Source: Methanothrix sp.
GTDB taxonomy: Archaea; Halobacteriota; Methanosarcinia; Methanotrichales; Methanotrichaceae
DNA length: 47,083 nucleotides
NCBI GenBank assembly: GCA_025361645.1
Contig: JANYKI010000098.1
Location: 1-47,083, forward strand
Direction of reading: 5' to 3'
Part shown: one piece after another, positions 1 through 47,083 of the stretch
Numbering within the stretch: position 1 is the first letter of the stretch
How the letters are laid out: each line of letters begins with the position of its first letter
The notes under the pieces: model-generated
Database searches by the model: none
What the model saw: the letters and a program-made list of their open reading frames with translations, nothing else
Told to the model about the DNA's origin: nothing
Program-made: the position numbers and the translations under genes

Positions 1-83
1 TAAAGTGCCAAATACAATTTCATTTTAAAAGAAGCAGCGGTTGATCGATATGAGTTAACGCAAAAAACGGCGAGGGTTCACTT

Positions 84-112
84 CATCCCCAACCTGAAGG
101 TTGGGGTATTCG
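84..112. mobile_element. Hairpin relic resembling an IS200/IS605-family end
   Basis: A perfect 8-bp inverted repeat (CCCCAACC at 87-94, GGTTGGGG at 99-106) encloses a TGAA loop and is flanked by CTTCAT on the left and TATTCGTGACC on the right. From memory, subterminal hairpins of IS200/IS605 and TnpB-type elements look like this. No transposase or TnpB gene is adjacent, so only an end would remain. It sits immediately before the truncated acylphosphatase gene. The hairpin is seen directly; its assignment to an insertion element is inference. Confidence 0.4.
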
Positions 113-807
113 TGACCCTCCGCACTCCCGATGTAATAAAAGGCCATATAGAAAATCTTGCAGATGGCAGGGTGCTGATTATAGCTGAGGGTGAAGAAAG
201 CGATCTGGAGAGATTTGCGAAAGCCCTTGTCATACAAAACACCATCATCAATGTTACGGGTATTGAGAAAGAATATAAAGCAGCCACATGCGAATACAAG
301 AGCTTTGCCAAATTGGTGGAAAGCGGAGAGACTGATTCACGACTTGACGCCGCCGTAGATCAATTAAAAGCGCTCATAGTCGTAACCAAAGAGGGTGTAA
401 ATGTAAGCCGAGAGATTCTTGCAGTAACACTGGAGAACCTGGCAGTCGGCAAAGAGACACTTGAAGTTAGCAAATCCGGTTTTTATGAGGTCAATAGCAA
501 GCTCGATTGCATGCTTTCAAAACAGGACTTGATGATAAGCAAGCAAGATTTGCAGCTCGACAAAACCGATCTGACCCATGACAAGCAGGATGAAACAATG
601 AATATGTTGAGCCAGGTGATAGAAAGACAGGACATTATGATTGAAAATCAAGGCGAGCTGGTGGAGAAAATGGATGAGTCCAAAAAAGAGATCGTTAAGG
701 AGACCAGGGATTTGCGCAAAGATCTGAAACCGAGCTTGGAGGACAGACTATCCCGAATCGAGAATGATGTGGCTCAAATCAAGGCCAAGATAGGTCTTGA
801 GAAATAA
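112..807 (+). CDS. Acylphosphatase-like/coiled-coil protein, N-terminally truncated
   Basis: Residues 9-58 (GHIENLADGRVLIIAEGEE and the following segment to YKSFAKL) match the second half of the acylphosphatase fold. The N-terminal strand and phosphate loop with its catalytic arginine are missing. The same frame stays open upstream to a stop at 1-3, but its translation is unlike acylphosphatase and crosses the hairpin at 87-106. Residues 75-231 form a long hydrophilic segment in heptad register, with recurring units such as MLSKQDL, MISKQDL and LQLDKTD. This should be a coiled coil. The listed GTG start is only the first available codon after the hairpin. The gene meets the next one tail to tail with one base between stops. 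It probably lacks acylphosphatase activity and may be a pseudogene, although the coiled coil is intact. Confidence 0.6.
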   Translation: MTLRTPDVIKGHIENLADGRVLIIAEGEESDLERFAKALVIQNTIINVTGIEKEYKAATCEYKSFAKLVESGETDSRLDAAVDQLKALIVVTKEGVNVSREILAVTLENLAVGKETLEVSKSGFYEVNSKLDCMLSKQDLMISKQDLQLDKTDLTHDKQDETMNMLSQVIERQDIMIENQGELVEKMDESKKEIVKETRDLRKDLKPSLEDRLSRIENDVAQIKAKIGLEK

Positions 808-43756: not shown

Positions 43757-44041
43757 TCATTCACTCTGCTGCAAAAGCCCTTTCTCTAGTCCAATCTCCA
43801 TCCAGGCCCAGGCCCAGATCACGGCCTCAAAAGCCCTGATTAGGTCTCCCTTCTCCAGAAAATACTGGCAGTCGCGAATGTAGGCGGAGACATTCTCCCG
43901 GAACTCTCCATCCCCGGATACCTTCTCATAGAGATCCTCGGCCTTTTTTTGCCATTTCACGGTCTCGGCACGCAGATCTTCTTCCAGTTTTCCCTCTGCC
44001 TCTTCAATATTTCTTCCCGGGCATCCTTTTTCACTGTTCAT
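43757..44041 (-). CDS. DUF357 family protein
   Basis: The 94-residue protein matches DUF357, an archaeal family of small helical proteins. The conserved half is YIRDCQYFLEKGDLIRAFEA followed by VIWAWAWMEIGLEKG. The N-terminus is a charged helix. Family members are cytoplasmic and without known function, often next to phosphoribosyltransferase or RNA genes. Its ATG is one base after the stop of hpt on the same strand, so the two are translationally linked. Start at 44041 is well supported by this spacing. Confidence 0.8.
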   Translation of the reverse strand: MNSEKGCPGRNIEEAEGKLEEDLRAETVKWQKKAEDLYEKVSGDGEFRENVSAYIRDCQYFLEKGDLIRAFEAVIWAWAWMEIGLEKGLLQQSE

Positions 44042-44042
44042 T

Positions 44043-44609
44043 TCAATCTCGAGACTTTGTGACGCTGGTTACATGGCTTTCATCGACCTTTACATCGACC
44101 ATGGTCTTGACAACGTAGCCCTCTGCCCTCAATCGCTCCACACCGTCGCCCCGCCTTATTACGACTACTACATCCTTGACAACTGCACCCGCAACCTTCA
44201 GGGACTGAAGCGTGGCCAGAAGCGTTCCACCGGTGCTGATGACATCATCTACCACAATGACCCGATCGCCCTTATTTATGCCGTTTAAGAAGAGCTGCGA
44301 CTTGGAGTAGCCTGTGACCTGGGAAACCTCGATCTCGCCGGGCAGGCCGTATTTGCGCTTTCTTATTATCACGAGAGGTATGTCACAGATGATGGAAAGG
44401 CCTATGCCGATGGGAATTCCCATAGCCTCTACCGTCACAATTTTGTCTACCTCCAGATCGGCAATGCGCATGATATGGCCGGTAACCTCCCGGATCAGCT
44501 CCGGCCTGACCTCGGGCACGCCGTCGGTGATGGGATGTATGAAGTAGTTGTATTCGCCCCTCTTGAATACGGGAGCCTCCAGTAATGATTTCGTGAGCCT
44601 TTCCAGCAT
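44043..44609 (-). CDS. hpt: Archaeal hypoxanthine/guanine phosphoribosyltransferase-like protein
   Basis: The 188-residue enzyme is a type I phosphoribosyltransferase. Its PRPP loop VIVVDDVISTGGTLLATL near residues 117-134 is intact, and the archaeal Hpt group marks FIHPITDGVPEVRPELIREV and VEAMGIPIGIGLS are present. It joins a purine base to PRPP for salvage; hypoxanthine or guanine is the usual substrate in this archaeal group, with adenine the alternative. It is the first gene of a pair with the DUF357 gene, one base away. The region upstream holds the repeat-bearing spacer before cas4-cas1 on the opposite strand. Confidence 0.88.
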   Translation of the reverse strand: MLERLTKSLLEAPVFKRGEYNYFIHPITDGVPEVRPELIREVTGHIMRIADLEVDKIVTVEAMGIPIGIGLSIICDIPLVIIRKRKYGLPGEIEVSQVTGYSKSQLFLNGINKGDRVIVVDDVISTGGTLLATLQSLKVAGAVVKDVVVVIRRGDGVERLRAEGYVVKTMVDVKVDESHVTSVTKSRD

Positions 44610-44975: not shown

Positions 44976-46670
44976 ATGTCGGAGAATAAGAGTTCCATTG
45001 AAGATGGAAATGACCTCATCCCAGCCAGCATGCTGGCCGCTTTCGCCTACTGCCCGCGGCTCTGCTACCTGCAGTTTGTGCAGGGCGAGTTTTTGGATAG
45101 CGCCGAGCTGGCCGACGGCAGATTCCAGCACCGCTGGATAGACGCGGAGCAGGACGCTGTGCCGGAGGACTTTGTGCCCTTCCACGTCCGCTCCGTTTCG
45201 CTTTCCGCCCCGCAGGCGGGCGTGTGCTGTCGCATCGATCTCTTGGAGGGCGACGGCCTGATAGTTACGCCGGTGGAGTACAAGCGGGGCGAAGCGCCCA
45301 AGACCCAGGCGGGCCTTTACGAGCCGCATCTGATGCAACTGGCTGCGCAGTGTCTGGCCCTGCGGGAGAACGGCTTCTCCTGTAAAGAGGCAATGGTCTA
45401 CTTCATCCGCTCCAAAGAAAGGGTCCCGGTGAAGTTCGACGTTGCCCTGATGGACAGAGCAAAGAGCCTTTTGGGGGTTCTGCGCAGCACGGTAGAGCGG
45501 GGCGAGATTCCCCCGCCCCTGCGCAGCAGCGCGCGCTGCGACCGCTGCTCACTGGCCGGAATTTGCCTGCCCGATGAGGTGAACCTCTTGCGGGAGATGG
45601 AGGCGGAGACCGCGCTGGAGGGCAAGCCCGAGGAAGAGAAGATCAGAATGCTGCTTGCCTGCCGGGACGATCAGGTGCCTGTTTACGTGGTCGGCCAGGG
45701 AAAGACGGTGCGAAAGCGTGGGGAGCGGCTGGAGGTCTGGTCTTATGAAGAGGGCAAGGTGAGCGAAGCTCGGATCAGGGAGATCTCCAAGGTCTGCCTT
45801 TACGGTGGTGCGGAGATCACCACTCCGGCCATGGTGGAGCTGATGCAGAGGAATGTGCCGGTGCTGCACTTCTCTCACGGAGGCTGGTTTCTTGGCATCT
45901 GTCAGGGTATGAGCCACAAGAATGTGCTCTTGCGTATCAAGCAATTCTCGTGGGCCGGGGATGAGGAGAAGTCGCTATCCATTGCCAGAAAGATCGTAGC
46001 CGCGAAGATTGAGAACTCCAGAATTCGGCTGCGCAGATACGATCCGGAAGGGCGAAGCCAGGTGCTGGAATCGCTGTCCAATCTCGCCAAAGATGCTGAG
46101 AATGCCACCAGCCGGCAGAGCTTGCTGGGAATTGAGGGTGCAGCCGCCGCGGCCTATTTCTCCCGGTTCAGTTCACTGCTCAAAGCGGACCCTGGAGATT
46201 TTTCCTTTGAGGGTAGAAACAAGAGGCCACCTCGCGATCCCGTGAATTCGGTCCTCTCTTACCTTTACGGCATCCTGGCCAAGGAGCTCTTCACAACGGT
46301 TCAGACGGCGGGCTTTGAGCCCTATCTCGGCTTCTATCACCAGCCCAGGTACGGTCGTCCGGCTCTGGCTCTGGATATGATGGAGGAGTTTCGACCGGTT
46401 ATTGCCGATGCTGCAATGTTCTCGCTCTTCAACAACGAAGAGCTGACGGCAAAGGACTTCATTAGAACGGGCATTGGCATCTCCATAATGCCTGAGGCCA
46501 AACGAAAGGTTATCGCCGCATACGAGCACAGGATGCAGACCGAGGTTACTCATCCCATTTTCGGCTACAAAGTGAGCTACAGACGGGTGCTTGAGGTGCA
46601 GTCGCGTCTCCTGGCGAGAGTTCTTTCCGGAGAGCTGAAAGAATACCCGGCATTTATTTCGAGGGGATAA
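44976..46670 (+). CDS. Cas4-Cas1 fusion (CRISPR adaptation)
   Basis: The 564-residue protein joins a Cas4 nuclease to a Cas1 integrase. Cas4 (1-200) has the FeS cysteines C26, C188, C191 and C197 (AYCPRLCY; CDRCSLAGICLP) and the RecB residues H52, D88, E101 and K103 (RIDLL, VEYKRG). Cas1 (about 232-564) has the metal site E387 in LLGIEGAAAAAYF, H455 in FYHQPRYG, and D467/E470 in LALDMMEEFRP. Cas4 trims prespacers and checks the PAM; Cas1 inserts them into the array. Such fusions are known with subtype I-G (formerly I-U) and type V-B. An AGGGGTG site precedes the ATG. No interference genes lie upstream. cas2 follows after two bases. Confidence 0.95.
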   Translation: MSENKSSIEDGNDLIPASMLAAFAYCPRLCYLQFVQGEFLDSAELADGRFQHRWIDAEQDAVPEDFVPFHVRSVSLSAPQAGVCCRIDLLEGDGLIVTPVEYKRGEAPKTQAGLYEPHLMQLAAQCLALRENGFSCKEAMVYFIRSKERVPVKFDVALMDRAKSLLGVLRSTVERGEIPPPLRSSARCDRCSLAGICLPDEVNLLREMEAETALEGKPEEEKIRMLLACRDDQVPVYVVGQGKTVRKRGERLEVWSYEEGKVSEARIREISKVCLYGGAEITTPAMVELMQRNVPVLHFSHGGWFLGICQGMSHKNVLLRIKQFSWAGDEEKSLSIARKIVAAKIENSRIRLRRYDPEGRSQVLESLSNLAKDAENATSRQSLLGIEGAAAAAYFSRFSSLLKADPGDFSFEGRNKRPPRDPVNSVLSYLYGILAKELFTTVQTAGFEPYLGFYHQPRYGRPALALDMMEEFRPVIADAAMFSLFNNEELTAKDFIRTGIGISIMPEAKRKVIAAYEHRMQTEVTHPIFGYKVSYRRVLEVQSRLLARVLSGELKEYPAFISRG

Positions 46671-46672
46671 TA

Positions 46673-46975
46673 TTGAGCGGACTTAATTTTTTTGTGGTCA
46701 GCTATGATATCAGGGAAAAGAAGAGGCTGTGCAAGGTTCATCGGGCTATGAAAGGATTTGGCGAGCCGGTCCACTACTCGGTTTTTCGCTGCGATCTCAC
46801 GCAACGTGGCAAGGTGGAGATGGTGGCCGTTCTCACCGACCTGATCGCGGCGGATGAGGATAGGATTATGATAATCGATCTGGGTCCCGTGGATGGAAGG
46901 GTGGAAGAGAGGATTGAATTTCTGGGGGTGCATGCAGCTAAGAGGAACATGCTCAATACTATGATTGAGCAATAG
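46673..46975 (+). CDS. cas2: Cas2 (CRISPR adaptation)
   Basis: The 100-residue protein has the ferredoxin-like Cas2 pattern: FVVSYDIREKKRLCKVHRAM with the conserved aspartate of the first strand, GEPVHYSVFRCDLTQRG and MIIDLGPVDG. Cas2 bridges two Cas1 dimers in the spacer-integration complex. The start is a TTG at 46673, six bases after a GAGGGG site. It directly follows the Cas4-Cas1 gene with two bases between. The C-terminus (HAAKRNMLNTMIEQ) is complete. Confidence 0.93.
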   Translation: MSGLNFFVVSYDIREKKRLCKVHRAMKGFGEPVHYSVFRCDLTQRGKVEMVAVLTDLIAADEDRIMIIDLGPVDGRVEERIEFLGVHAAKRNMLNTMIEQ

Positions 46976-47083
46976 TCAGTATCTCAGCTAGCCTCGGCAT
47001 GGCAAATGATTTTGAATAAATATCGTGCATATATTGAAAGAAGCTCACCCCAAGTTTTCTGCACGTATCCTTAATCGATAAAC
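46976..47083 (+). other. Region downstream of cas2, probable start of a leader
   Basis: The last 108 bases are A/T-rich, with no repeat unit and no open frame. In this position a CRISPR leader would be expected, but nothing in the sequence itself proves one. The window ends before any array could be recognised. Confidence 0.3.

Follow-up and report, generated by a model that had tools for sequence, protein, structure and literature searches.

Fusion of Cas4 and Cas1 into one protein is treated as a mark of CRISPR subtype I-G (and V-B), and in Geobacter sulfurreducens the partner effector of the Cas4/Cas1-Cas2 complex is indeed of subtype I-G. The locus described here lies at the 3' end of a 47,083-nucleotide stretch of Methanothrix sp. 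DNA (the window), which is the entire contig JANYKI010000098.1 (C76) of a 141-contig genome (assembly GCA_025361645.1). The closest solved structure to its fused Cas4/Cas1 protein (Cas4/1) is that of the G. sulfurreducens type I-G Cas4/Cas1-Cas2 (PDB 7MI4 series), which matches window residues 12-563 with 492.9 bits. Fusion order, length, catalytic residues and the cas2 partner are the same in the two systems; unlike the Geobacter locus, the window has no adjoining I-G gene and its branch of the family is linked to type III-B Cmr. Subtype I-G loci, both bacterial ones and those of its own genus, have a Cas4/1 of the same family, and within the genus the repeats are similar, but I-G loci carry cas3, csb1, csb2 and usually csx17 beside Cas4/1, and these are missing from the window and its branch. 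In type III-B clusters an adaptation module is often missing, as described for myxobacteria (PMC11237760). In the relatives of the window the Cmr genes come with a fused Cas4/1; the genome of the window itself yielded no Cmr2.

Results

The fused gene (Table 1) belongs to the Cas4g/Cas1g family, since the NF049935 model (cas4g_cas1g) scores 687.6 bits over its full length where the cut-off is 560; Pfam gives 302.6 bits for Cas1 and 52.1 bits for Cas4, and PADLOC gives 561 bits for Cas1g. The Cas4 domain spans approximately residues 16-200 and the Cas1 domain approximately residues 236-563. Alignment with 7MI4 locates the Fe-S/nuclease residues of the Cas4 half, including the invariant C26, C30, C188, C191 and C197, as well as the invariant catalytic E387, H455, D467 and E470 of the Cas1 half, and the active-site residues are kept across twelve relatives. 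The ORF that follows matches Cas2 in Pfam (52.7 bits) and PADLOC (Cas2g, 79 bits). Judged by these matches, the 3' end of the window is a real spacer-acquisition module made of a fused Cas4/Cas1 and Cas2. The window yielded neither an I-G gene nor a Cmr gene, which bears out the original prediction of a Cas4-Cas1/Cas2 module without effectors in view; accordingly, csx17 or a variant, csb1, csb2 and cas3 do not share a locus with the module within the window, which ends in an insertion sequence (IS).

Table 1. Coordinates of features on the window and of polymerase genes in related loci
Feature	Coordinates	Strand	Evidence
DUF357 protein, ordinary neighbour	43757..44041	-	PF04010
hpt-like phosphoribosyltransferase, ordinary neighbour outside the module	44043..44609	-	PF00156
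Cas4/Cas1 fusion, 564 aa	44976..46670	+	NF049935, Pfam and PADLOC matches; 7MI4 match
cas2 ORF, TTG start, 100 aa	46673..46975	+	Pfam, PADLOC; residues 1-91 are Cas2
Possible 8-bp target-site duplication GCTAAGAG	46937..46944	.	one copy seen; up to the junction, identical to the uninterrupted G015 site (L062)
IS66-type element end (GAACATGCTC...)	46945..47083	-	same end on 6 contigs; homology to IS66 transposases
Transposase C-terminus, last 40 codons	46959-47081	-	homologous to 478-aa and 471-aa IS66 transposases (PF03050)
Family-A polymerase beside Cas4/1-Cas2-array module, Methanotrichaceae	L062:9409-11265	-	
Same	L068:16777-18627	-	
Same	L107:6359-8182	+	
Same	L100:3326-5185	+	
Same	L104:8990-10576	+	
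Same	L097:7566-9107	-	
Same	L105:2147-3676	+	
Same	L116:13076-14530	-	

The hpt and DUF357 genes, noted earlier on the opposite strand upstream of Cas4/1, are both confirmed there in divergent orientation. They also precede the module in the relative G008 (L071), and other genes stand upstream of it in G015 and G014. Because the upstream neighbours of the module differ among genomes in this way, reading hpt and DUF357 as genes that occupy the place of effectors is not warranted.

The window ends at 47083 because an IS, of IS66 type by the homologs of its transposase, starts at 46945, within the last ten codons of cas2 (junction 46944/46945). Up to 46944 the contig is unique and tracks the ortholog in its closest relative (G015) to that base. 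The intact cas2 of G015 continues as AGAACAGG... and ends in EQEGKIIIV; in the window the frame happens to stay open for nine residues of IS sequence before a stop, ending in NMLNTMIEQ. Since the DNA from 46945 is the end of the IS, these last nine residues of the ORF are not Cas2, and the module falls short of the intact Cas2 that belongs to a complete Cas1-Cas2 adaptation module. Of 102 aligned Cas2 sequences, nearly all have a hydrophobic final strand, which is absent from the window Cas2; the protein is probably impaired because this conserved end is lost. A Cas2 with nine altered end residues might still work, and perhaps not every cell of the population carries the insertion.

The final 141 bases of the contig are identical to the end of C111, and the same sequence starting with GAACATGCTC also ends contigs C41, C59, C69 and C86, in each case after unrelated unique sequence. 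By itself the 40-residue transposase fragment matched no Pfam model; its full-length homologs in relatives match PF03050 (IS66). A short repeat element without a transposase had been considered and was dropped once full-length IS66 transposases were found among the relatives. As the contig ends in the IS, it cannot be extended. At its opposite end, window positions 1-141 also occur at the start of contig C101 and hold an inverted repeat, CCCCAACCTTCAGGTTGGGG, resembling the end of an IS200/IS605 element, so the contig seems to run into a mobile element on either side.

A tree of 38 Cas4/1 proteins carries effector-linkage labels on 18 rows, 11 of them from Methanotrichaceae; the labelled rows were picked by us from loci with enough flanking sequence, and the labels are therefore not blind. 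The tree places the window protein in a separate Methanotrichaceae branch that goes with type III-B Cmr rather than with I-G: wherever linkage is visible its members are linked to Cmr, and never to I-G, so that the window protein lies outside the I-G-linked clade. The Cas4/1 of contig C101 of the same genome falls in the clade in which every member with readable linkage goes with I-G, and a single clade of the window and C101 proteins was rejected (p-AU 4e-6). The nine-row clade of the window has support of 100/99; the deepest fork of the larger Cmr-linked branch has modest support (90/77). The I-G/Cmr label changes once on the tree, whereas shuffling all 18 labels 500 times never gave fewer than three changes; with only the 11 Methanotrichaceae rows, a single change came up in one of 500 shuffles. 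The assumption of an I-G or V-B partner is thus unsupported for the window, which the tree sets on the Cmr-linked side. Because a branch of the family is paired with type III-B, subtypes should not be called from the Cas4/Cas1 fusion alone.

The Cas4/1 ortholog of G015 is 94% identical over 564 residues to that of the window, and its locus displays the undisturbed order: cas4/1, an uncut cas2, a leader of ~250 bp and an array of ~40 repeats of ATTTCCATGACTGAAAAGTCGTGGCTCAATTGAAAC, then a family-A DNA polymerase ~1 kb past the array, cmr1-cmr6 with Card1, and a second Cas4/1 (87%). An effector operon immediately downstream, which would have spoken against a module without effectors, is not seen there; the array is found instead. 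Nor are csb1, csb2 and cas3 the effectors near the module, as had been expected, for G015 has no I-G gene near the ortholog and its nearest effector operon is the type III-B Cmr operon, starting ~9 kb after cas2. Cmr genes and Card1 occur on contigs with a Cas4/1 module of the window type in G015, G024, G016 and others.

Within the genus, Cas4/1 is present in 16 of 26 members, Cmr2 in 12/26 and csx17 in 6/26, so that there are more Cas4/1 modules than effectors of the csx17 type, although csx17 is missing from some I-G loci. In two relatives the ortholog of the window Cas4/1 is truncated, past about residue 195 in G008 (L071:2730-3410) and about residue 163 in G014 (L070:1723-2220), and the module therefore seems to decay repeatedly. 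Certain members of the Cmr-linked branch, for example that of G003 C165, have no Cmr on a 35-kb contig and none in the genome; orphan modules of this kind are thus not unique to the window.

On the Cmr-linked side of the tree, a family-A polymerase (PF00476) lies within ~5 kb of Cas4/1 or the array in about ten loci (examples in Table 1), and at the threshold used none was found beside the I-G loci of the genus or beside bacterial Cas4/1 loci. The polymerase motifs are conserved, and by our reading of the alignment the 3'-5' exonuclease motif appears degraded. Viral contigs yielded no relatives of the polymerase to a single-sequence query, and a recent phage origin is unsupported because phage family-A polymerases share less than 60% identity with it.

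The genome of the window contains three Cas1 genes, on the window, on C101 and on C54. C101 holds a second Cas4/1-cas2 pair, 64% identical to that of the window and starting at the contig edge; C134 holds cas3-csx17-csb1-csb2, with the only csx17 of the genome and with csb2 running to the contig edge; and C54 holds an I-B system with Cas8b and Cas7b and the start of an array at the contig end. A search for Cmr2 in this genome (97% completeness) found none, so that no Cmr1-6 set that would assign the module to type III-B was recognised in the locus or the genome. Of the two earlier options, that effectors lie beyond the end or that the module stands alone, the second therefore holds for this genome insofar as no effector of its own was found, the I-G set being on C134 and no Cmr2 having been detected, but the partner expected was the wrong one.

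In the ~0.72 Mb of the genome covered (54 stretches, ~30%), neither the other end of the IS nor the missing array, the polymerase, Card1 or Cmr was found, and a search of the genome with the leader of the G015 ortholog locus, run without a positive control, returned nothing. A solitary leader with a single repeat and no further repeats occurs at C12:153-187 (L080), at C35:7624-7658 (L081) and at L097:7016-7333, and a lone repeat at C52:28110-28144 (L082). The C12 and C35 leaders resemble one that precedes the array in a third Cas4/1 branch (G003 C165; 84% over 331 bp), and not the leader behind the ortholog of the window. The leader-repeat site on C35 lies ~80 bp ahead of an ORF that looks like a nucleotidyltransferase of the MNT type.

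Discussion

The reading that we consider probable is that the window carries an extra adaptation module of the III-B-linked lineage, orphaned and probably crippled by an IS insertion. By homology to the Geobacter complex, its Cas4 half would cut back captured DNA on the PAM side, and Cas1-Cas2 would then integrate this DNA at the leader end of an array; such an array presumably once stood behind cas2 in this genome. The IS66-type insertion in the last cas2 codons parts the module from whatever followed. This, together with the failure to find Cmr2 in the genome, makes it a second, orphan adaptation set beside the I-G and I-B systems. The array or effectors of the module may lie beyond 47083 on an unbinned contig. 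The window thus presents an adaptation module without a partner, being broken by insertion.

Since the repeats of the two lineages are much alike, as in G015, where the III-B-linked array repeat ATTTCCATGACTGAAAAGTCGTGGCTCAATTGAAAC closely resembles the I-G array repeat ATTTCCACGGCTGAAAAGTCGTGGCCCCATTGAAGC, the module might instead work in trans, acquiring spacers for arrays elsewhere and being shared with the I-G effector on C134. The intact active-site residues of Cas4/1, the solitary leader-plus-repeat sites on C12 and C35 and the lone repeat on C52 would fit such a role; we nevertheless regard it as unlikely, given that the I-G lineage has a Cas4/1-cas2 of its own on C101, that the window Cas2 is without its conserved end, and that the C12 and C35 leaders resemble that of G003 C165. 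It is far less credible that the window is an ordinary I-G locus split by assembly alone, with the I-G effectors just behind the IS. The cas4g_cas1g match is to the I-G family and the I-G operon on C134 does end at a contig edge, but the natural partner of C134 would be the I-G-clade Cas4/1 on C101, likewise at a contig edge, while the window protein belongs to the other clade and its G015 ortholog has no I-G gene nearby. Equally improbable is an assembly artefact at the junction that hides an intact cas2: a 141-base shared overlap at a contig end is typical of an unresolved repeat, yet the contig is unique and ortholog-like up to 46944, and on five other contigs this IS end is preceded by unique sequence that differs each time.

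Beyond the orphaned module itself, we propose tentatively that the Methanotrichaceae possess a distinct Cas4/1-Cas2 lineage that serves III-B Cmr and has a dedicated family-A polymerase filling the gaps left by spacer insertion, with the window as a decaying member. The nearby polymerase would be a direct candidate for the enzyme that finishes the insertion of spacers in these archaea. Linkage between a polymerase gene and the genes of CRISPR adaptation is also known from CRISPR-associated primase-polymerases (PMC8211822), but those enzymes are primase-polymerases, whereas the Methanotrichaceae enzyme is a family-A polymerase. No paper on family-A polymerases with CRISPR adaptation was found in the literature searched, and the clade-wide pairing of Cas4/1 with Cmr and this polymerase may be the part that is new to the specialist.

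Between the Cmr genes and Cas4/1 of related loci lie a Card1-like nuclease and small CARF- or SAVED-domain proteins (L063:1070-2317(+), L063:3184-3849(+), L068:9112-9681(+) and L065:10867-11511(+)), which suggests that these genes are cyclic-nucleotide signalling parts of the III-B loci.
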